A program made the translations under genes and the position numbers. A DNA stretch of 64,000 nucleotides from Alistipes sp. (lineage in GTDB: Bacteria > Bacteroidota > Bacteroidia > Bacteroidales > Rikenellaceae), in NCBI GenBank assembly GCA_017937765.1, contig JAGBCY010000022.1:1-64000 (forward strand), in the 5' to 3' direction. The notes under the pieces are model-generated. The model had not been told where the DNA came from. It ran no database searches and saw nothing but the letters and a program-made list of their open reading frames with translations. This document shows, piece after piece, positions 11,366 through 58,734 of this stretch. The first letter of the stretch is position 1. The number at the start of each line of letters is the position of its first letter.

Positions 11366-11481
11366 CTATATATTAATAGGTACATATTTTTTTCGTATTT
11401 TTGCCATCATCAGATGGACCTATTACATCAAGGTTTTACAGCTTGAGCCGCAACAAGTGACGGTAGTTTAACGCTTTTTCG

Positions 11482-11489
11482 TATATTTG
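11482..11489 (+). promoter_or_regulatory. Putative -7 box of the guanine deaminase gene
   Basis: TATATTTG just upstream of the first ATG. A similar TATTTTTG lies near 11395. No clear -33 TTG. Confidence 0.4.
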
Positions 11490-11505
11490 CGAGGTTTTTG
11501 TTAGG

Positions 11506-12036
11506 ATGAGAAGTATGGAGAATATGATAGATAGACAACACGGACTCCCTGAGCGGAGCGACTACTCGGAGGATGATCGCCGTTTTATGCAGATGGCCAT
11601 CGACCTCTCAATAGAGAATATTGATTCGGGCGGTGGACCTTTTGGTGCTGTCATCGTGCGTGATGGCAAGGTGGTGGCTAAGGGTGCTAACCGCGTAGTG
11701 CCGAACAACGATCCCACGGCTCACGCCGAGGTTATGGCCATACGTAACGCCTGTCGCGAGCTCGAGACCTTCGACCTCTCGGGTGCCACGGTTTATAGCT
11801 CGTGCGAGCCCTGTCCGATGTGCCTCAGCGCACTCTATTGGGCTGGTGTCGAGCGCATATGCTATGCCAATACCAAGCGCGATGCGGCGGCCATCGACTT
11901 CGACGACTCGTTTATCTACGACCAACTACGTCTGGACTACGACCGTCGCTCGATACACTGCGAGCACTTTATGCGCGACGAGGCGATGGCGGCGTTCCGT
12001 AAGTGGGATGATAAACTCGATAAGGTTGAGTATTAG
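11506..12036 (+). CDS. guaD: Guanine deaminase (nucleoside/nucleobase deaminase family)
   Basis: 176 residues; a zinc-dependent cytosolic deaminase. The motifs are HAEV (catalytic Glu) near residue 75 and PCPMCLSALYWAG near 105, and the C-terminal block EHFMRDEAMAAFRKWDDK matches the guanine deaminase branch rather than tRNA adenosine deaminase. Likely reaction: guanine to xanthine plus ammonia. Alternative starts at 11515 or 11524 are possible, since the -7 box at 11482-11489 leaves little leader before 11506. A purine-type permease and purA lie downstream, so purine salvage fits. Confidence 0.82.
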   Translation: MRSMENMIDRQHGLPERSDYSEDDRRFMQMAIDLSIENIDSGGGPFGAVIVRDGKVVAKGANRVVPNNDPTAHAEVMAIRNACRELETFDLSGATVYSSCEPCPMCLSALYWAGVERICYANTKRDAAAIDFDDSFIYDQLRLDYDRRSIHCEHFMRDEAMAAFRKWDDKLDKVEY

Positions 12037-12055
12037 AGTGTTAACGCTAAACAGA

Positions 12056-12844
12056 ATGAATGATATGAAGAGACTTATTTGGTGTCTGTGCCTCGTGATT
12101 GCTATGACGGCGGCAGAGGAGGCTACTGCACAGAAGATTATTGCGCACCGCGGTCATCATTCGGTAAAGGGTGCCGAGGAGAACTCGATTTCGGCACTTA
12201 GGGCCGCACACGAGGCTGGGCTCTATGCCGTTGAGTGTGACGTGAATATGACGTCGGATGGCGAGCTTGTTGTGGTCCACGGCCCGTGGCTCGGCAAGAA
12301 GGATGATCCCGACAGACTCAACGTTCAGCGTACCGACTTTGCCACACTGCGTTCGAAGCGTCTCGCAAATGGCGAGCAGGTGCCTACGCTTGACGAGTTC
12401 CTCGAGGTGGCGGCAGAGTGTCCTGATACTAAGCTCGTTATCGAGGTCAAGGACCACTCTACGCCTCAGATCGAGACCGAGGTGGTGCGTAAGGTAATTG
12501 CCGCTGTTAAGCACCACAAGTTGCAGGATATGGTCACCTACATCGCTTTCCGTCAGCACGTGTGCGACGAGTTCGTGCGCCTCGCGCCGTCGGATACACC
12601 TGTGATGTATCTCTCGGGAAATCTTACGCCCGAGTATGTCAAGGGGTTGGGTTATGCTGGCATCAGCTACTCGGTGGATGCTCTCAGACGCCTGCCGCGC
12701 TGGATCGAGGAGGCTCATAAACTCGGCCTCGAGGTCTCGATATGGACAGTAAACTGCTCAGACGATGCCTCGTGGGCAGTGAAGCAGGGTGTCGACTATA
12801 TCACGACGGATAAACCCTCGATGGTCGAGCGTGTGTTGGAATAG
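12056..12844 (+). CDS. Secreted glycerophosphodiester phosphodiesterase
   Basis: 262 residues (an alternative ATG at 12065 gives MKRLIWCLCLVIAM, a typical signal peptide). The GDPD TIM-barrel motifs are present: IAHRGHHSVKGAEENS near residues 28-45 (catalytic His), VECDVNMTSDGELVVVHG near 62-79, and VSIWTVN, DYITTDKP near the end. It should hydrolyse glycerophosphodiesters in the periplasm to glycerol-3-phosphate and an alcohol. It follows guaD by 19 bases and precedes the permease by 23 bases. Confidence 0.88.
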   Translation: MNDMKRLIWCLCLVIAMTAAEEATAQKIIAHRGHHSVKGAEENSISALRAAHEAGLYAVECDVNMTSDGELVVVHGPWLGKKDDPDRLNVQRTDFATLRSKRLANGEQVPTLDEFLEVAAECPDTKLVIEVKDHSTPQIETEVVRKVIAAVKHHKLQDMVTYIAFRQHVCDEFVRLAPSDTPVMYLSGNLTPEYVKGLGYAGISYSVDALRRLPRWIEEAHKLGLEVSIWTVNCSDDASWAVKQGVDYITTDKPSMVERVLE

Positions 12845-12867
12845 TAAATTATAACTAACTCGGATTT

Positions 12868-14127
12868 ATGAAACTGAAATACAACATTGATGATAAGTTG
12901 CCATTCGGCCAGATGATGCTCTACGCCGTGCAGTGGTTTATTCTTGCTGTGGCGGTGGTCGCTACGAGTGTCTTTGTAGCGCAGGGAACACCTGGCGAGA
13001 AGCTATTTTATGCTCAGAAGCTATTTGCCGTTATGGGCGTAACGGGACTTTTGCAGGTTGTCGTTGGTCACCGTATGCCGCTGGTCGTAGGTCCTGCGGC
13101 GGTGCTTCTTGTGGGTGTTATCTCGTCGCTGGGCGCGGGTGCTGATACAGAGTCCATCTACTCATCTATCGCCATCGGTGGCGTGCTTATCGCGCTACTT
13201 ACGTTTGGTGGAGCTATGCGCTACGTTCAGCGTCTCTTCACGCCGCGCATTGTCATCGTTATACTTATGCTCATCGCCTTTACGCTTGCTCCCGTGATTA
13301 AGAATCTTGTCTTTCCTGCGGGTAGTAGCTCGGAACAGTATCTCTTCGGCTTGCTCTTCGCTATCGTCGGCTGCCCGGTGATGGTGGTACTCAACCGCAC
13401 GCTTCGTGGCGTGGCTAAGAGCCTCGTTATCCCCATCGCGCTGGTTGCAGGAAGTGCGGTCTATTACGCTATCTTTGAAGCCTCGTCGCCCGTGGCAAGT
13501 GCCGCATCGGTAGATGGATTGCTCCTCTCGGGTTTTAGCTTCGACTGGAGCCTTGTCGTGGCCTTCGTGATATGCTATATCGCACTGCTTATCAACGATA
13601 TTGGCTCTATCGAGTCGCTCGGTGCGATGCTTCAAACCGAAGGACTCGATAAGCGTCTCAAGCGCGGTGTGCGCACGACGGGCATTATGAACATCGTGGC
13701 GGGAGCTATGGGTGTCCTCGGCCCTGTGAACTACTCTATGAGCCCGGGTGTTATCGCCTCGACAGGGTGTGCCTCGCGACGTGTGCTTATCCCTGCGACG
13801 CTGATGCTTATCCTCTGTGCCCTCTCATCGGACCTTATCTGGCTGCTTACGAATATCCCGAATCCCGTGATCGGCGTAATCCTCCTGTTCTTGATGGGTA
13901 CGCAGCTGGCGGCGAGCTTCGAGATGCTGCACTCTACGCGCTCGGTGCAGTCGTTCGCCGATGGCCTCACTATCGGCCTGCCGCTGATGATGGCTATGCT
14001 GTTCCAGCTTATGCCTCGCGGTATCGTCCCCGCTGTCGTTGAACCGCTCGTTGGTAATGGCTTTGCTATGGGTGTCATCGTGGTTATCGTTATGGAGCAC
14101 ATTGTCAACCGCAGCAGTGCAAAATAA
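12868..14127 (+). CDS. NCS2-family nucleobase permease
   Basis: 419 residues with about 12-14 hydrophobic segments. The NCS2 (uracil/xanthine permease) plan is visible: ALLINDIGSIESLGAM near residue 250 with the conserved acidic residue, followed by GVLGPVNYSMSPGVI-like NCS2 signature near 290. It probably imports a purine or uracil with protons. Its place after guanine deaminase and before purA supports a purine substrate (inference). Confidence 0.82.
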   Translation: MKLKYNIDDKLPFGQMMLYAVQWFILAVAVVATSVFVAQGTPGEKLFYAQKLFAVMGVTGLLQVVVGHRMPLVVGPAAVLLVGVISSLGAGADTESIYSSIAIGGVLIALLTFGGAMRYVQRLFTPRIVIVILMLIAFTLAPVIKNLVFPAGSSSEQYLFGLLFAIVGCPVMVVLNRTLRGVAKSLVIPIALVAGSAVYYAIFEASSPVASAASVDGLLLSGFSFDWSLVVAFVICYIALLINDIGSIESLGAMLQTEGLDKRLKRGVRTTGIMNIVAGAMGVLGPVNYSMSPGVIASTGCASRRVLIPATLMLILCALSSDLIWLLTNIPNPVIGVILLFLMGTQLAASFEMLHSTRSVQSFADGLTIGLPLMMAMLFQLMPRGIVPAVVEPLVGNGFAMGVIVVIVMEHIVNRSSAK

Positions 14128-14139
14128 ATCGGGCTACGG

Positions 14140-14170
14140 TTGTTTTGTTGTGAATTATTTTGTACCTTTG
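14140..14170 (+). promoter_or_regulatory. Putative promoter of purA
   Basis: TTG at 14140-14142 and TACCTTTG at 14163-14170 with 20 bp between, the canonical Bacteroidetes arrangement; leader about 45 bases. No purine riboswitch fold is apparent. Confidence 0.55.
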
Positions 14171-14209
14171 TAGCCGTTAAATTCTGCCGTCATCGGTTGG
14201 CGGCTATAA

Positions 14210-15503
<1,294 letters not shown>

Positions 15504-15505
<2 letters not shown>

Positions 15506-15632
15506 TTTCTTGTGATAAGAGGTCGATTGCGGCCCCTAACAAAAAATCCCGACAATGGGACGTACGTTAAGTACTACCCATCGTCGGGATCTTTGCCGAG
15601 TGTAGCACTCGGCACCCTTCTGACAAGAAATT
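15504..15632 (+). repeat. MITE-like palindromic repeat, copy A1 (subfamily I)
   Basis: Begins AATTTCTTGTGATAAG inside the purA stop codon and ends CTTCTGACAAGAAATT, forming imperfect inverted ends. The central stem is TCCCGAC-A-ATGGG against CCCAT-C-GTCGGGA, closing the conserved loop CGTACGTTAAGTACTA. It shares AACAAAAAAT before the stem and the overall plan with copy B3 at 45672, where two stem pairs differ in a compensatory way. Confidence 0.8.
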
Positions 15633-15759
15633 TATCGTGATAAGGGGCCATTCTCGGCACATCTCAAAAGTTCAAATGACCACGGGCTGTACGATTGGTA
15701 CTAACCCGTGGTCATTTCTTTTGCGATGCACCAAGCCTAACCCCTTCTCGCAAGAAATT
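15629..15759 (+). repeat. MITE-like palindromic repeat, copy A2 (subfamily II)
   Basis: Shares AATT with the end of A1 and runs head-to-tail. Starts AATTTATCGTGATAAGG and ends CCCCTTCTCGCAAGAAATT. The central perfect stem AATGACCACGGG / CCCGTGGTCATT closes the loop CTGTACGATTGGTACTAA. The right arm contains GATGCACCAAGCCTAACC, also found in part in copies B1 and B2. Confidence 0.8.
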
Positions 15760-15806
15760 AGTCTCGCCGCCCTCATTGGCGGCTTTTTTGCCGAGTACAA
15801 GAAATT
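15756..15806 (+). repeat. Short derivative of the palindromic repeat (A3)
   Basis: A 51-base stretch bounded by AATTAGTC and ACAAGAAATT, the same end sequences as the full copies, but the centre is only the purA terminator hairpin. It is probably an internally deleted copy. Confidence 0.5.
15766..15789 (+). terminator. Rho-independent terminator of purA
   Basis: GCCGCC (15766-15771) pairs with GGCGGC (15778-15783), followed by six T. Confidence 0.8.
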
Positions 15807-15842
15807 GGGGCGTGCTATCCAGAGACCATCTCTTTTGCAATG

Positions 15843-18338
15843 TTACGGCATCATATCAGCTGCTTGAAGTATCTTGTTGCGTAGGAGTGTGGGGTAGTTG
15901 GGGTTATCCTCGAGGAAACGCTCCACCTCGGCGCGTGCCTCTTGGCTTGTATGGCCACCGAGGAGTGCTCCTGCCCAGTTGCGCGGGAAGAAGATGTCGC
16001 CCGTGCGCTGTACCTCGCGAAGCTCCTCCAAGCCGGGACGTATATATTTTATGCTGCGCTCCTGACGTGTGGGGTGGTTTATGAGTGCAAGTGCCGATGC
16101 GGCCCACGGCTCGGTGCGACGATTCTCGGGCTCAAGGAGCTCCTCGAAGAGAGCATCCAGTGCCTCGGGGTCGGCAACAGTGGCGCGTGCCACGTAGTCG
16201 AACTGGCGTATGCGGTCGGGGTTGGTGATGCGCTCGCGCTGGGTGGCGATGATGGCGTCGCGCTCTTCGGGCAAACGCACGGCGAGCTCCAAGGCCATAG
16301 ACATATAATCCATCTCGTTGAGCTGCGGGTGTTTACCCTCGCTCCATATGCGGTAGATGCGCTCCGTGGCCTCGAGCGAGAGTGTTGTGCCGGATAGGGT
16401 TGTGAGTAGCTGACGTCGGCACGAGGCGAGCGGATGACACTCGGCAATGTCAAGGAGTGCAGCCTCATCCTCGGCAGTCGCTACGCGAAGCATCGGCGAC
16501 TTAAGGAAGCTACACATCGTGGATGCTATGAGTGCATTTTGCTCCGTGGGAAGCACATCGACGAGAAGTTGCAGCCACTCGCGAGCATCGAGTAACGACC
16601 AGCGGTAGCACTCGTTGAGGACGATAAGTAGCGACTCGCGCGTGGTGTCGTCCGTGATGGTTGCTATATTTTCCGTGATCCACGCCATCGACGCCTCATC
16701 GGGGACGAAGAGTCCGTAGCCGCGGCCGTCGCTGTTGGGTAGTAGGGCTATGGTCTCGGTAGGGATGGTGTAGTGGTGTTCGCTACTGTCGAGTGTGATG
16801 TCGATGTTGGCGGTGCTGCCGTCTGCTAAGATTGCACGACACTCGAAGCTCTCTCTCCAGAGTAGCTCACGGCCGTAGATGTCGCGTTGCGAGGTGCTTA
16901 GAGCGTCGCCCTCGCGCTCGAAATATATCTGCGGCATACCCTTGCTATGCACCCACACCTCGCTAAACGACGCAAGGTCATAGTCGGTGTAGCTGTCGAG
17001 TATGGCGATAAGTTCTGTCCACGTGGCGTTGTCGTAGGCGTAGGTAGTGAGGTAGTCGTGAATGCCACGGCGGAAGGCCTCCTCGCCCATAAGCTCCACC
17101 ATCATCTCCATAACGATCGGAGCTTTGTTATAGATGATCTGTCCGTATATTAACCCTGCATTTTGCAGATTGTCAAGCTCCTGACGTATTGCTGTCGTGC
17201 CCGCGGTTCGGTCCTCGGAGAGCGATGCGAGCGTGTAGCTCTTGAGTCTGTTTAGACGGTGGTTGACCTCAGGATATAGCGGCTCGGTCATACGTGCAGC
17301 GAAGTAGTTGGCAAATACCTCCTTGGTCCACACGTCGTCGAACCAGCGCATCGTCACATAGTCGCCAAACCACATATGTGCCGTCTCGTGGGCTATGAGT
17401 TGCGTGCGTCGTAGCTCCTCGTCGAGCGTCGGGTTGTCGCCGAGAAACATCTGGCCAGCGTTGTAGAGCGTGGCTCCCGTGTGCTCCATACCTCCGTACT
17501 GGAAGCCTGGGAGCATCACAAGGTCATACTTGGCAAAGGGGTAGGCCACGCCAGTGTACTCTTCTAACCACTCGAGCGAAGCCACCACTTGACGGAATAT
17601 CTCGTCGATCTGTGCTATACGCTCAGGGTCGGTCTCGCGGTGGTAGGCATTTATCGTACGTTCCGAGTCGTGGTATGTTGCGACGTTGAGCGCGCCTGCG
17701 ATGAAGCTAAAGAGATAGGTGCTTAGCGGTTCTGTGGGGTGAAACTCGATATGCTGTCGACCGTCAGCCTTTGTGCTACTCCTCACGCCGCTATTAGATA
17801 CTGCAACCCACTCCTCGGGGAGCGAGAGGCTTAGCTCGAACGTTGCCTTTAGGTCGGGCTGGTCAAACACGGGAAAGAGCGTGCGTGCGCGGTCGGGGAC
17901 GAGCAGCGTATAGAGGAAGTCGTCGTTGCGGTTGAGCGACTGGTCGCCTGCGCGGAATGCTATGCTTATACAATTTTCTCCCGCTACTATTGCCGTTCTG
18001 GGGATTATGATATGCTCGTTTTCAGCGCGATAGTCACACACTATGCCATTTGCCTCGATGCTCGTTATACTCGAAGCAGGCTCGCGGAAGTCGATGATTA
18101 CCTCCTCGGCTTCGGCCATCGTGAAGCATATTGCCACACTGCCATCTACCGCCTCGCTACGCTCGGCTGGGAGATCGAAGTGTAGCTTGTAGCTAAGGTC
18201 GCTAATCGTTGCCTTGCGCCACTCGGCCAGTTCGCGCGAGATGCCGCTGTCGTAGCGCGGATCCTCTTTCGTCTCCTCGGTGCAACCAATCGCAGCGATT
18301 GCCACCGTCAGGCATAATACCTTTATAAGCTCCTTCAT
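15843..18338 (-). CDS. M1-family zinc aminopeptidase, lipoprotein
   Basis: 831 residues with lipobox IGC (Cys 19), so a lipid-anchored exported enzyme. Domains: N-terminal beta saddle (about 45-230), catalytic thermolysin-like domain with YGGMEH (283-288, the GAMEN exopeptidase motif in variant form), HETAH (317-321) and the third zinc ligand Glu340 in WTKEVFANYFA, then a helical C-terminal domain. It removes N-terminal residues from peptides outside the cytoplasm. It is convergent with purA and divergent from the glycerate kinase gene; no clear own terminator is visible, though the repeat array lies just beyond its stop. Confidence 0.92.
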   Translation of the reverse strand: MKELIKVLCLTVAIAAIGCTEETKEDPRYDSGISRELAEWRKATISDLSYKLHFDLPAERSEAVDGSVAICFTMAEAEEVIIDFREPASSITSIEANGIVCDYRAENEHIIIPRTAIVAGENCISIAFRAGDQSLNRNDDFLYTLLVPDRARTLFPVFDQPDLKATFELSLSLPEEWVAVSNSGVRSSTKADGRQHIEFHPTEPLSTYLFSFIAGALNVATYHDSERTINAYHRETDPERIAQIDEIFRQVVASLEWLEEYTGVAYPFAKYDLVMLPGFQYGGMEHTGATLYNAGQMFLGDNPTLDEELRRTQLIAHETAHMWFGDYVTMRWFDDVWTKEVFANYFAARMTEPLYPEVNHRLNRLKSYTLASLSEDRTAGTTAIRQELDNLQNAGLIYGQIIYNKAPIVMEMMVELMGEEAFRRGIHDYLTTYAYDNATWTELIAILDSYTDYDLASFSEVWVHSKGMPQIYFEREGDALSTSQRDIYGRELLWRESFECRAILADGSTANIDITLDSSEHHYTIPTETIALLPNSDGRGYGLFVPDEASMAWITENIATITDDTTRESLLIVLNECYRWSLLDAREWLQLLVDVLPTEQNALIASTMCSFLKSPMLRVATAEDEAALLDIAECHPLASCRRQLLTTLSGTTLSLEATERIYRIWSEGKHPQLNEMDYMSMALELAVRLPEERDAIIATQRERITNPDRIRQFDYVARATVADPEALDALFEELLEPENRRTEPWAASALALINHPTRQERSIKYIRPGLEELREVQRTGDIFFPRNWAGALLGGHTSQEARAEVERFLEDNPNYPTLLRNKILQAADMMP

Positions 18339-18362
18339 ACCTAATTTCGATTATAATTTCTA

Positions 18363-18370
18363 CAAAGTTA
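18363..18370 (-). promoter_or_regulatory. Putative -7 box of the M1 peptidase gene
   Basis: TAACTTTG on the minus strand, 25 bases before the ATG. No clear -33 element. Confidence 0.4.
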
Positions 18371-18391
18371 GCATATTTCCCCATTTCGTAG

Positions 18392-18399
18392 TATCTTTG
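18392..18399 (+). promoter_or_regulatory. Putative -7 box of the glycerate kinase gene
   Basis: TATCTTTG, 31 bases before the ATG, back-to-back with the minus-strand box at 18363. Confidence 0.45.
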
Positions 18400-18430
18400 A
18401 GAGTGAATTTTTAACTACGGAGCTTTTTAT

Positions 18431-19558
18431 ATGAAACGTGTGGTTGTTGCTTTCGACTCGTTCAAGGGGTCGCTTAGTTCGAGAGAGGCTAACGAGGCTT
18501 TCGCTGCTGGTGTTAGAGATATTATGGCCGAGGTGGAAATCTCGGCTGTTGCGATCTCGGATGGCGGTGAGGGCTTCTCTGAGGCTGTTGCCGAAGGTAT
18601 TGGCGGCGATATCGTAGATGCTTGTGTCTCTGATTCTTTAGGTCGTCCTATCGCGGCACGTTACGCGCTCATTGATAATGGATGTACGGCTGTTATTGCC
18701 CTCGCTTCAGCAAGCGGTCTTATGCTTCTCGATGCCGCTGAGCGCGATCCGCTCGTCGCCTCGACCTATGGTACTGGTGAGCTTATTCTCGATGCTGTTT
18801 CACGTGGATGCCGTAGGGTGGTCCTCGGACTTGGAGGCAGTGCTACGTGCGATGCTGGTACGGGGTTGCTCCGAGCGTTGGGATGTATGTTTCTCGACTC
18901 TAAGGGTAGGGAGTTAACTTCAACGATAGATATTCTTGAGCACACGGAGTTAATATCGGTTCCTGTGTCTCCACTTCGCGATGTGGAGCTTTACGTGGCT
19001 GTTGATGTTGAGAATCCGCTTATCGGCGAGCGTGGTGCAGCGCGTGTCTTTGCGCCACAAAAGGGGGCGAGTCCAGAGGATGTTGAGCGTTTGGAGCGTG
19101 CGATGTGTCGCTTTGCAGATGTTGTCGCCCGCCACGTTAGGGATGACTATGCGATGGAGAGGAGTATGGGAGCTGCCGGCGGTGTGGCCTTTGGTCTCAG
19201 AGCTTTCTTGCGCGCAGTGCCCGCGTCGGGTATTGGTCTTATGCTTGAGCTTGTCAACTTCGAGTCGCTTGTGCAGGGAGCCTCGCTTGTTGTGACGGGC
19301 GAGGGACGTGTAGATTGTCAGACAGTTATGGGCAAGGCACCGTCAGGAGTACTGCGTGTTTCGGAGCGTGTAGGTGTCGGGTGTGTTGCTGTTGGTGGGG
19401 GTGTTGCGTGGTGCGATGAGCTTCGGTCGTCGGGCTTCGATGCTATCTATGCGGCGACACCCGATGGCGTGCCTTTGGCTCTGGCGGTGCAGCGCGATGT
19501 GGCCTATGACAACCTTAGAGCCGTAGGTCGACGTGTGGCGAAAGATTACCTCCTTTGA
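18431..19558 (+). CDS. Glycerate kinase (GarK/GlxK type)
   Basis: 375 residues; phosphorylates D-glycerate with ATP, feeding glycolysis or serine synthesis. The family motifs are DSFKGSLSS at residues 8-16, SDGGEGF near 42-48, LGLGGSATCDAGTG near 133-146, and TGEGRVDCQT near 290. Full length. It stands alone, with a promoter box directly upstream and a divergent peptidase gene. Confidence 0.92.
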   Translation: MKRVVVAFDSFKGSLSSREANEAFAAGVRDIMAEVEISAVAISDGGEGFSEAVAEGIGGDIVDACVSDSLGRPIAARYALIDNGCTAVIALASASGLMLLDAAERDPLVASTYGTGELILDAVSRGCRRVVLGLGGSATCDAGTGLLRALGCMFLDSKGRELTSTIDILEHTELISVPVSPLRDVELYVAVDVENPLIGERGAARVFAPQKGASPEDVERLERAMCRFADVVARHVRDDYAMERSMGAAGGVAFGLRAFLRAVPASGIGLMLELVNFESLVQGASLVVTGEGRVDCQTVMGKAPSGVLRVSERVGVGCVAVGGGVAWCDELRSSGFDAIYAATPDGVPLALAVQRDVAYDNLRAVGRRVAKDYLL

Positions 19559-44436: not shown

Positions 44437-44539
44437 TGATTACAAAACGAGAGAACTGGCCTTTTCGGGTATATGAGGAATGGTGTGAACCTCGCGTTTA
44501 GGATTAAAGAAAGTGATAATTTTTTGATTGTTTCCGACT

Positions 44540-45415
44540 ATGGACTACGTTAAAGAGTTAGAGAAATATGCTCCAGCACACACCGAGGCGCAGGTAGCTA
44601 AGGAGGTCGCTAAGATTAAAATGGCGGCAAATCGTAATGGTAACGTCGATGTCTACAAGTTCTGTTACTCGGCCATCGACCTTACTACGTTGTCGTGTAC
44701 CGACTCGCAGGAGTCTGTGCAGGCTTTCGTGCGTAAGGCTGTCGACTTCTACGAGAAGTATCCCAACATCCCGAATGTAGCCTCTATATGTGTTTACCCT
44801 CCCTTTGTTGAGACCGTGGGCCTCGAGATTGACGGCACGCCTATGCGCATCACGAGCGTAGCTGGTGCCTTCCCTGCGTCGCAGAGCTTCATCGAGGTTA
44901 AGGCTTTAGAGGTGGCTATGGCCATCGAGAACGGTGCCGACGAGATTGATATCGTCCTAAACCCTGGCCTTATGATTGCGGGCCACGAGGCTGAGGCTGC
45001 CAGCGAGGTAGAGGTGCTCAGAGAGGAGGCTAAGGATGTTGTCCTTAAGGTCATCATCGAGTCGGGAGCACTCAAGAGTCCTGAGCTTATCCGCCGTGCA
45101 TCGCTCGTGTCGATGTTTGCGGGTGCCGACTTCGTTAAGACATCTACCGGCAAGATCGACATCGCTGCAACGCCTGAGGCTGCGTTTGTTATGTGCCACG
45201 CCATCAAGGATTACTACAATATGACTGGTCGTAAGGTAGGCTTCAAGGCTGCTGGTGGTGTCCGCACGCCCGAGGATGCTGCGCTCTACTACACCATCGT
45301 CGAGGAGGTCTTGGGCAAGGAGTGGCTCACTACCGACCTCTTCCGCATCGGAGCCTCATCGGCAGCGAATAACCTAATTTCTGCGATAGAGGATAAGGTT
45401 ATCAAATACTTCTAA
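44540..45415 (+). CDS. deoC: Deoxyribose-phosphate aldolase
   Basis: 291 residues from MDYVKELEKYAPAHTEAQVA (an upstream TTG start at 44528 is less likely). It splits 2-deoxyribose-5-phosphate to glyceraldehyde-3-phosphate and acetaldehyde in deoxynucleoside breakdown. Schiff-base Lys in FVKTSTGK near 204 and the second Lys in GFKAAGGVRTPEDA near 237. The first 45 residues form an extra helix usual for the longer DeoC branch. No other deo genes are nearby. The stop codon is part of the palindromic repeat at 45414. Confidence 0.95.
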   Translation: MDYVKELEKYAPAHTEAQVAKEVAKIKMAANRNGNVDVYKFCYSAIDLTTLSCTDSQESVQAFVRKAVDFYEKYPNIPNVASICVYPPFVETVGLEIDGTPMRITSVAGAFPASQSFIEVKALEVAMAIENGADEIDIVLNPGLMIAGHEAEAASEVEVLREEAKDVVLKVIIESGALKSPELIRRASLVSMFAGADFVKTSTGKIDIAATPEAAFVMCHAIKDYYNMTGRKVGFKAAGGVRTPEDAALYYTIVEEVLGKEWLTTDLFRIGASSAANNLISAIEDKVIKYF

Positions 45416-45540
45416 TTTAGCGTGATAGCAGTGCTACTGTGACGCTTCAATCAACGCTCCGAATGGGAAATACGTCAAGTATGTCCCATCCGGGCTGATT
45501 TCATGTCGAGACCAAGCCTAACCCCTTCTGACAACAAATT
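45414..45540 (+). repeat. MITE-like palindromic repeat, copy B1 (subfamily II)
   Basis: Starts AATTTAGCGTGATAG inside the deoC stop codon; ends CCCCTTCTGACAACAAATT. Central stem CCG-A-ATGGGA against TCCCAT-C-CGG with the same A-C mismatch as A1 and B3. The inner GTAC/GTAC pair of the other copies is replaced by ATAC/GTAT, a compensatory change. The right arm has ACCAAGCCTAACC as in A2. Confidence 0.75.
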
Positions 45541-45669
45541 ATTTCTTGTGGTAATGGGTCATTCTCTACCTATCCCTAAATATGGCTACCTCGGGCTGTA
45601 CGTCATAGTACTATCCCGAGGTAGTTACTTTTGTGATGCACCACATCTCACGACTTTTGACGCTAAATT
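45537..45669 (+). repeat. MITE-like palindromic repeat, copy B2 (subfamily II)
   Basis: Directly follows B1. Starts AATTATTTCTTGTGGTAATGGG and ends TTTTGACGCTAAATT. Perfect stem CTACCTCGGG / CCCGAGGTAG closing CTGTACGTCATAGTACTAT. The flank GATGCACCA is shared with A2. Confidence 0.75.
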
Positions 45670-45671
45670 GT

Positions 45672-45799
45672 AATTTATTGTGATAAGGCAGCATCTACTG
45701 CCGCTAACAAAAAATGCCGTCAATGGGCTGTACGTTAAGTACTATCCCATCGACGGCATTTTTGCTGAGTGTTCAATCCGCTACCTTCTGATAAGAAAT
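45672..45799 (+). repeat. MITE-like palindromic repeat, copy B3 (subfamily I)
   Basis: Starts AATTTATTGTGATAAGG and ends CCTTCTGATAAGAAAT. Central stem AATGCCGTC-A-ATGGG / CCCAT-C-GACGGCATT closing CTGTACGTTAAGTACTAT. It aligns with A1 along its length. The remaining 45800-45960 shows no gene. Confidence 0.8.
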
Positions 45800-45967
45800 G
45801 AGGTCATATGCTACCAGTTGGTGGGTTGTGTGAGTAGATGGGTTAATTGGGGCAGGCGGGCAGACGCCTACGTGATACTTAAACCACGGAACCCGCAGAA
45901 CCCACGAAATCAGTTATACGGGGTTACTCCAACAGTGCGTCATTGCCCATAATTCCCACATAAAAAA

Positions 45968-45993
45968 GGCGTGATAGCCGAAACTATCACGCC
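45968..45993 (-). terminator. Rho-independent terminator
   Basis: GGCGTGATAG (45968-45977) pairs with CTATCACGCC (45984-45993); on the minus strand six T follow. It ends the lipoprotein gene at 46015. Confidence 0.85.
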
Positions 45994-46014
45994 CGAAATA
46001 TCACCTAATCAATA

Positions 46015-47427
46015 TTACTTAACAACATTGAAAGTGTTGTACTTAAGATCAGCTGAGAACGACTTTGTAGCCATACCCTTGCTTGCAGTTGAAGCTGAAG
46101 CACCACGAGCCATTGAAATAGGACCAGCGGGGATAACTACGTCAGGAGTAGCCTCGAAGTCGAAGAGGATAGACATCTGGTAAGTGTCATAGTTAACAGC
46201 GTAAACCTCCATAGCGAATGCCTCGAACTCGGTGTCGTCAGAGAGTGTACCAGCACCCATAGCAATTGTTGAGATGCTTGCGCCATCCTCGCTGAGCTCC
46301 CAGTAGTATGCGGGATACTGACCAAGAACGGGAGTCAAGCCTCTTGCAGTCTTGCAGTAGCAAAGCCAAGTAGCATAGTAACCGTCGCCCAAGTCAGCCA
46401 TATCAAGACCAGTGAATACGTTGAGGACACCCTCAGAGTCGATCAATGCGAGAGTAGGCATAGGTGAACCATCATCCCAAGTGAGGCGGCTCAAACCGTA
46501 AACTGCAACAGCGTTGAAGCCATTGTCGAGAGCGGGCTCGATAGTGATCTCGAAGTTAGTAGTAGCAGTGCCAGCGAAAGGACCGTCAACATAAGCCTCC
46601 TCGCCCTCGCCTACGAGGCTGAAGGTCAAAGTCTCGTTAGCAGTAGCGTTCCAAGTGCCAACCCACTTCTCCATATCGGGGTGGGGCTGAGCCTCAGTTG
46701 TAGTGATGAAGTCGTCGAAGATAACCGACTGACCCTCATCGTTAGTAGCCTGAGCGATGATACGGTACTCAGTTGCAGCCTCAACCTCGAAGAGCATAGT
46801 TACACCAGTCTCAGTGTTAGCCTTAGCAACAGCCTCAGCAGAAATTGCCTGGCACTCAGCAGCCAAAGTAGCAGCGGGAGTGTTGCGGTAAGTCTCAGCG
46901 TCGAAAGCCATTACGCGGATATCAGCGATACCTGTACCCTTGTAAGAGTGGAAGATGTGCATAAAAGGATAGTAGCCGTACTCTGCATCCTCCTCAGTGG
47001 GGAGAGATACGAGGTGCTGAATCCAGTCTACATCATCAGCAGTTGCGCCGTTTACAGCCTGCTGGATAGAAGCGAACTCAGAGTTAGTGTAGTTCGAACC
47101 CTCGGCAGCCATAGCCATAACCTTAACAGTGTAAGTACCAGCGTTGAGGTTCTCCATCTTGAACTCAGTTGCGGTGATGTTGTGGTTCTTAGAGCCATCG
47201 TTTACCATATAACCGATAGCGTTCTCAACAGCCTCCCACTTAACGATGAAGCTGGTGTTAGTTACATCCTCTACCGAAAGAACGGGCTTTGCAAGAGCAG
47301 TAGGAGTAGTAGGCTTGTTACCGTTACCATTGCCGTTGTTGTTGTCGTCACCATCGACGGGAGTCTCACAAGCAGCAAACGTGAACATAGCAGCGAAAGC
47401 CACCATCAAAGAAAAAAACTTTTTCAT
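46015..47427 (-). CDS. Lipoprotein with a fibronectin type III-like domain
   Basis: 470 residues, starting MKKFFSLMVAFAAMFTFAAC (lipobox FAAC, Cys 20), then a flexible Asn/Gly linker (DDNNNGNGNGNKPTTP). Residues about 42-130 (PVLSVEDVTNTSFIVKWEAV, NLNAGTYTVKVMA) look like an FN3 domain. The rest has a second FN3-like part (ATEYRIIAQATNDEG) and a C-terminal beta region starting at KWVGTWNATANETLTF. Codon use is more even and less biased to GAG/CTC than in its neighbours. Surface-exposed binding role is likely; no function assigned. Confidence 0.8.
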   Translation of the reverse strand: MKKFFSLMVAFAAMFTFAACETPVDGDDNNNGNGNGNKPTTPTALAKPVLSVEDVTNTSFIVKWEAVENAIGYMVNDGSKNHNITATEFKMENLNAGTYTVKVMAMAAEGSNYTNSEFASIQQAVNGATADDVDWIQHLVSLPTEEDAEYGYYPFMHIFHSYKGTGIADIRVMAFDAETYRNTPAATLAAECQAISAEAVAKANTETGVTMLFEVEAATEYRIIAQATNDEGQSVIFDDFITTTEAQPHPDMEKWVGTWNATANETLTFSLVGEGEEAYVDGPFAGTATTNFEITIEPALDNGFNAVAVYGLSRLTWDDGSPMPTLALIDSEGVLNVFTGLDMADLGDGYYATWLCYCKTARGLTPVLGQYPAYYWELSEDGASISTIAMGAGTLSDDTEFEAFAMEVYAVNYDTYQMSILFDFEATPDVVIPAGPISMARGASASTASKGMATKSFSADLKYNTFNVVK

Positions 47428-58694: not shown

Positions 58695-58700
58695 TAAATT

Positions 58701-58734
58701 AGTAGTGAGTAGTGAGTAATTAGTAATTAGTAAT
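58701..58734. repeat. Short tandem 7-bp repeat
   Basis: Five head-to-tail units: AGTAGTG twice, AGTAATT twice, then AGTAAT. The rest of 58735-58960 has no credible gene and contains a run of eight C at 58881-58888. Confidence 0.7.

Follow-up and report, generated by a model that had tools for sequence, protein, structure and literature searches.

A palindromic repeat behind deoC and purA

The window, i.e., the whole 64,000-nucleotide stretch of Alistipes sp. DNA that was analyzed, carries two arrays of one palindromic repeat, found directly behind deoC and purA (Table 1). Three units (B1–B3) lie head-to-tail behind deoC, spanning 45412–45803 in total, with the TAA stop codon of the gene (45413–45415) inside B1, and two further units (A1 and A2) cover 15502–15762 behind purA. 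This agrees with a sequence-only reading of the locus, which had placed three copies behind deoC, the first overlapping the TAA, and had recognized the same repeat in both arrays. The base changes listed in that reading were also recovered by inspection: between A1 and B3, CCCGAC/GTCGGG becomes GCCGTC/GACGGC, i.e., two pairs are altered on both sides; the inner pair is ATAC/GTAT in B1 and GTAC/GTAC in the other units; and an A-C mismatch is common to A1, B1, and B3. B2 represents another subtype, with a stem free of the A-C mismatch.

Table 1 Coordinates of the two repeat arrays and their anchor genes in the window.
Feature	Position	Strand	Remarks
deoC (DeoC/LacD family aldolase)	44528..45415	+	Bounds of the mechanical ORF; stop codon anchors the B array
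Unit B1	45412..45543	+	Subtype with GAATGGG..CCCATCC stem; covariance-model bounds
Unit B2	45538..45672	+	Subtype with GGGCTGTACGTCATAGTACTATCCC core; covariance-model bounds
Unit B3	45670..45803	+	Covariance-model bounds
P3 arms of unit B3	45710-45727 and 45746-45763		94% complementary
purA (adenylosuccinate synthetase)	14210..15505	+	Anchor of the A array
Unit A1	15502..15635	+	TAA of A1 is the purA stop codon
Unit A2	15627..15762	+	Second unit behind purA

Each unit is an imperfect palindrome of ~131 bp made of a closing stem (P1) and a long central hairpin (P3). The two unit ends, AATTTnnnGTGATAAG and CTTCTGACnnnAAATT, form P1, which follows the pattern AATTTnnnGTG..ACnnnAAATT, while P3 has a GTAC-loop-GTAC tip and is preceded by an A-run and followed by a T-run. 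Arrays include one to three units, and about a third of them are followed by a recognizable tail of roughly 70 nt: in the source genome, the start of this tail (TGTGCTATCCC..) could be recognized behind 22 of 63 arrays, the remainder of the tail differing in some. The predicted fold of A1 reaches −58.6 kcal/mol (z = −8.7 relative to shuffles), but its four stems were not retained as the family structure, since stems 2 and 4 differ among subtypes. In the B array, the left end of B1 does not pair with the right end of the same unit but with that of B2, as given by both an inverted-repeat search and a fold, from which we conclude that this array is a mosaic. A 25-base core, allowing ≤3 mismatches, was matched 18 times in the source genome compared to 0 times for a reversed control pattern, which rules out chance.

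Several observations on related structures can be added. The simple-sequence part of the tail also occurs on its own, as a repeat like ATTACTCACTACTCACT, at 58699–58727 of the window (minus strand), where it adjoins the A-run of a convergent terminator, with no hairpin unit. At G000:C28:7501-7550 of the source genome (G000), a 50-bp palindrome consists of one left arm and its own reverse complement, and is likewise positioned on a stop codon. Finally, in the deoC array of another genome (G056) as in B1/B2, the outer ends of the array pair together and the inner ends partly, as if these were mosaics of units.

Copy number and taxonomic range

A covariance model built from 28 units of the source genome (1.92 Mb, 86% complete) yielded 138 matches in this genome, 52 of which had a better match as counterpart on the other strand, leaving at least 86 distinct places. 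This is a lower bound, as 150 of the 418 first-look candidates were scored. The at least 86 copies are grouped into 63 arrays, i.e., 42 single, 19 double, and 2 triple.

Within the genus Alistipes, matches were obtained for 40 of 61 sampled genomes, the source genome included, and 19 of these 40 displayed at least 43 matches (with at most 54 candidates scored and both strands counted); the other 21 genomes were without a match under the stricter filters of the genus search. At the family level, 37 of 150 genomes and 3 of 22 genera had matches, with only a few in the two genera besides Alistipes, and at the order level, besides the source genome, 3 of 294 genomes had one weak match each. The exact core was found in 14 stretches of the named genome collection, all from Alistipes metagenome-assembled genomes (MAGs) of ruminants. 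No match was found in the plasmid, phage, and IMG/VR collections searched, and these three groups were thus rejected as carriers as far as the collections go.

Units are anchored at stop codons

We evaluated the position of each array relative to the gene upstream, considering frames open for ≥70 codons, on the same strand as the unit, and ending near it. In the source genome, all 63 arrays had such a co-oriented frame. The stop codon fell exactly on model positions 2–4, such that the TAA of the unit is the stop codon itself, in 44 of these arrays, and 62 of 63 were located ≤15 nt from a co-oriented stop. Random intergenic points of the window gave 0.3% for the exact position and 4.2% for a position following a co-directional stop by ≤15 nt. 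Relatives displayed the same arrangement, with an exact stop for 44 of 69 arrays and no such frame for 2 (one misoriented entry excluded). The anchoring stop was TAA for 57 of 63 arrays in the source genome, compared to 25 of 52 open reading frames in the window, and in two arrays of this genome and three others the gene ends instead at a TGA at +11 inside the unit. The right end showed no comparable relationship with the other strand: among 63 arrays of relatives, a frame within 150 nt was present there for only 21, at scattered distances. Purging of insertions within genes does not by itself account for the scarcity of arrays further downstream, and we know of no mechanism that would aim exactly at in-frame stop codons.

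Presence of units at orthologous genes is patchy

Orthologues of purA and deoC differ in both the presence and the subtype of units, which lie on the stop or no more than about 7 nt away from it, while by inspection the end of the protein remains at the same position whether a unit is present or absent. For purA, units lie on the stop or follow it by a few nt in G000, G051, G017, G052, G025, and G105, a degenerate unit was recognized by eye in G021, and none was found in G040, G011, G059, G041, G004, G038, G056, G035, G109, and G114, the locus of G022 not being judgeable and hence left out of this tally. For deoC, units were identified in G000, G041, G052, G011, G040 (partial), G056, G059, and G051, and none was found in G021, G025, G004, G038, and G022 from the close group or in 17 more distant genomes. 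These are comparisons among species, too diverged outside of genes to provide a true empty site, and orthologous genes without the element often carry an unrelated hairpin at that place. One candidate empty site, the ABC-transporter locus of G114, was rejected upon inspection, as a shrunken hairpin and a tail are present there.

The borders of the element were examined from 11 pairs of similar copies (≥85% identity over 150 nt) located behind different genes. In all of them, the shared stretch begins within about 7 nt of the unit start, which defines the left border, and in three pairs it extends 63–80 nt beyond the last unit. The sixteen best single-unit matches of A1 in four other species had 86–95% identity, and gene stretches had 68–86% in the same search. 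Both genes flanking the ABC-transporter copy remain neighbors in five genomes (G000, G044, G105, G114, and G035), leading us to reject an integron-like gene cassette.

A transposase with matching ends, for which the sequence-only reading had proposed a search, was not found in the source genome when searching with the left end. Specifically, 48 of 50 left-end matches were known units and 2 were unexplained; a longer, autonomous element sharing this left end was not found in this 86% complete genome, and was rejected there. No clear target-site duplication was found either. The 4-bp AATT at the unit ends was rejected as a proof of transposition, since AATT is its own reverse complement and a duplication is therefore ambiguous; where the outer four bases were not AATT at both ends, 1 case had direct agreement, 2 inverted agreement, 3 both, and 36 neither (a few misoriented copies included).

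The purA locus has further peculiarities. Among the 61 genus genomes, the purA of the source genome is 88–94% identical to that of 14 genomes and 44–48% identical to that of the 43 others with a match, as if this subclade had replaced its purA. In addition, purA is inverted relative to its neighbors in the two searched species without the element there (G109 and G114), as seen for window positions 11475–19507 against G109:C83, and for purA and its downstream side against G114:C10.

Stems conserve pairing rather than sequence

For the 28 units of the source genome, from whose alignment the structure itself was picked, the covariation score was 0.342 compared to 0.138 when shuffled, a value reached by none of 500 shuffles. 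When 73 copies from other genomes were aligned with MAFFT, two subtypes fell out of register within P3, and covariation was therefore counted on the 40 copies of one clean subtype, the other 33 being left out. These 40 copies, found through the model (and thus leaning toward the structure) yet aligned without it, gave a score of 0.316 compared to 0.090 when shuffled and 0.03–0.06 when slid. Overall, the structure was paired in 96.2% of their cells (94% for the P1 ends and 98% for P3), with changes on both sides for 27 of 43 pairs. The refuting condition named in the sequence-only reading, a lack of significant covariation among aligned copies, is thus clearly contradicted: covariation is strong across the copies compared, and the stems conserve pairing rather than sequence. 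It extends to P1, whose strands covary over 130 nt (CTT/AAG, GTT/AAC, GCT/AGC, AGC/GCT, and TTGATT/AATCAA); at the deoC of G056, which ends in TAG, P1 is AGCTTGG../..CCAAGCT. P1 also includes conserved mismatches, T.C in 38 and G.G or G.A in 36 of the 40 copies, indicating that the arms are not simply kept identical.

We then used mismatches within P3 to examine what maintains the pairing. When a sense RNA is under selection, G.U pairs should be tolerated and A.C pairs should not. From 143 distinct copies (67 of the 86 from the source genome, namely those that a per-locus search recovered in the correct orientation, and 76 from other genomes), in alignments fitted to the model structure, 81 had all 12 pairs intact, and their left arms came in 45 versions. 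Leaving out the 5 copies with fewer than 9 of 12 positions paired, isolated mismatches amounted to 14 G.U, 21 A.C, and 10 others, or 12, 18, and 9 events once like ones were collapsed. By comparison, 29 distinct Alistipes tRNAs with 17 stem pairs each displayed 22 G.U, 0 A.C, and 8 others (G.U/A.C, Fisher p = 2.8e-6). The P3 spectrum is strand-symmetric, and with G.U and A.C about equally frequent, no sense-RNA selection is seen in the standing copies. The earlier proposal of selection on a folded RNA or a DNA cruciform is hence supported in part, i.e., for the preservation of pairing, and is not supported for RNA selection in standing copies. The simplest account is a stem paired at the time of copying, followed by neutral decay. 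A strand-symmetric constraint on DNA, including a cruciform, predicts equal G.U and A.C as well. Stepwise change is also possible, given that 27 of 45 perfect stems differ from another by one pair (in a set with five or six wrong-strand copies). Beyond this family, which is rich in naturally re-paired stems, the comparison of G.U and A.C with a tRNA control provides a general probe for whether the covariation of a repeat family is due to RNA selection.

Interpretation and alternative explanations

Units display the pattern of an intrinsic terminator, i.e., a stable hairpin followed by a T-run, with ≥4 T among the 8 nt downstream of P3 for 74 of the 77 copies taken from other genomes; a strict terminator-consensus scan of 45300–46100 called none of B1–B3. 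Judging from this sequence pattern, P3 probably terminates transcription. Overall, we interpret the repeat as a non-autonomous and probably mobile Alistipes family similar to MITEs and ERIC that acts as a gene-end terminator, a reading to which we assign a probability of roughly 60%. Specifically, the unit would move as a non-autonomous element, pairing would matter at the copying step, and units would settle on stop codons in gene orientation, with the TAA of P1 serving as the stop codon. P3 would then end transcription. Since the stop codon is where the left strand of P1 begins, a ribosome terminating there would cover this strand, and may thereby link the folding of the unit with translation, to some extent like what has been reported for Yersinia ERIC. 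If true, a repeat that lands on stop codons in gene orientation would represent a natural, swappable gene-end module, and would illustrate a way for terminators to spread as mobile DNA.

Alternatively, units could be 3′-UTR RNAs maintained by the host, i.e., terminators or mRNA-stabilizing elements under sense-RNA selection and spread by ordinary recombination. The exact placement at stops, the gene orientation, the T-run after P3, and the strong covariation could all be expected from such RNAs. However, this explanation is already weakened by the mismatch test (12 G.U and 18 A.C events vs 22 and 0 in tRNAs), and it fits poorly with both the 21 of 61 genus genomes without a match and the differences in presence and subtype between orthologous genes, so that we consider it unlikely.

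The pairing could also arise with no selection for it, if template switching in a DNA palindrome rewrote one arm from the other. Such arm-to-arm copying would be consistent with the strand-symmetric spectrum, in which 9 other events accompany the G.U and A.C ones, with the large share of perfect stems built on different left arms, and with the 50-bp left-arm mini-palindrome of the source genome. Yet it would erase mismatches, and those of P1 are conserved, as is the A-C mismatch of P3 in A1, B1, and B3. The conserved P1 mismatches speak against simple arm-to-arm copying alone, and stop anchoring would be left unexplained, making this a rather improbable account.

A more specific version of the mobile terminator would have it guided to in-frame stops by the expression machinery, be it the terminating ribosome, the mRNA 3′ end, or the direction of transcription, possibly via an RNA copy whose 3′ tail is of simple sequence. 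To our knowledge, no bacterial mobile repeat has such targeting, and we give this version only a slim chance.

The conserved loops and stems could point to a known structured RNA or riboswitch family. However, a search with 4227 Rfam models at gathering thresholds returned a single tRNA for the whole window, matches at the array were limited to chance-level miRNAs, and units stand behind genes instead of before them; a known Rfam RNA is thus refuted for these models, and a known family is very improbable in general. REP/BIME-type repeats, which a Y1 (RAYT) transposase mobilizes, are similarly palindromic, intergenic, clustered, and of high copy number, but can be considered refuted for the 61 genus genomes, as far as these are complete, as none encodes a Y1_Tnp domain (PF01797; control positive in 5 of 14 known genomes), and the ~131-bp units are several times longer than REPs, given as 20–40 bp in PMC3733652.

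Comparison with known repeat systems

No paper on this repeat family was found in the published literature searched, and as far as this search and that of Rfam go, the family is new, with stop anchoring and re-paired stems as the features that set it apart. ERIC keeps one consensus rather than re-paired variable stems. ERIC/IRU elements of enterobacteria are otherwise alike in size (about 127 bp), palindromic nature, mostly intergenic location, and high, variable copy number, and Yersinia ERIC at 3′ ends are reported to affect the upstream mRNA depending on their orientation, with involvement of the ribosome and of an RNase E site (PMC2229807 and PMC10969869). By description, however, ERIC belong to another taxon (Enterobacteriaceae/Vibrionaceae), while within the genomes searched the Alistipes repeat is confined to its own family but for the 3 weak matches. 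Exact anchoring at stop codons is a feature of the Alistipes repeat that the consulted passages of the two sources do not describe for ERIC.

Other systems share individual traits. Correia/NEMIS of Neisseria are small repeats whose transcripts form long stem-loops, but have 24-bp terminal repeats and target duplications and are mainly found upstream of genes. In pneumococcus, SPRITE is terminator-like, and SPRITE and BOX/RUP are families bunched together (PMC10969869), but RUP targets TA and has a parent of the IS630 type (PMC2229807), neither of which was found for the Alistipes repeat. BrickBuilt and other MITEs of Porphyromonas gingivalis resemble it as intergenic Bacteroidales elements forming an array with leader and tail, but differ by a 23-nt minisatellite, ISPg-type ends, and a distance of 49–591 nt to the nearest upstream gene (PMC4596501). 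Integron attC sites (R/L boxes, IntI integrase) may serve as an analogy only, for sites at gene ends that are recognized by structure.

A second hairpin-forming repeat, about GACTAAAAAGTAAnTTAGTC, with varying outer stem pairs, was observed behind genes of several Alistipes species, including the purA loci of G040, G109, and G114, as well as G105:C35 and G114:C40.
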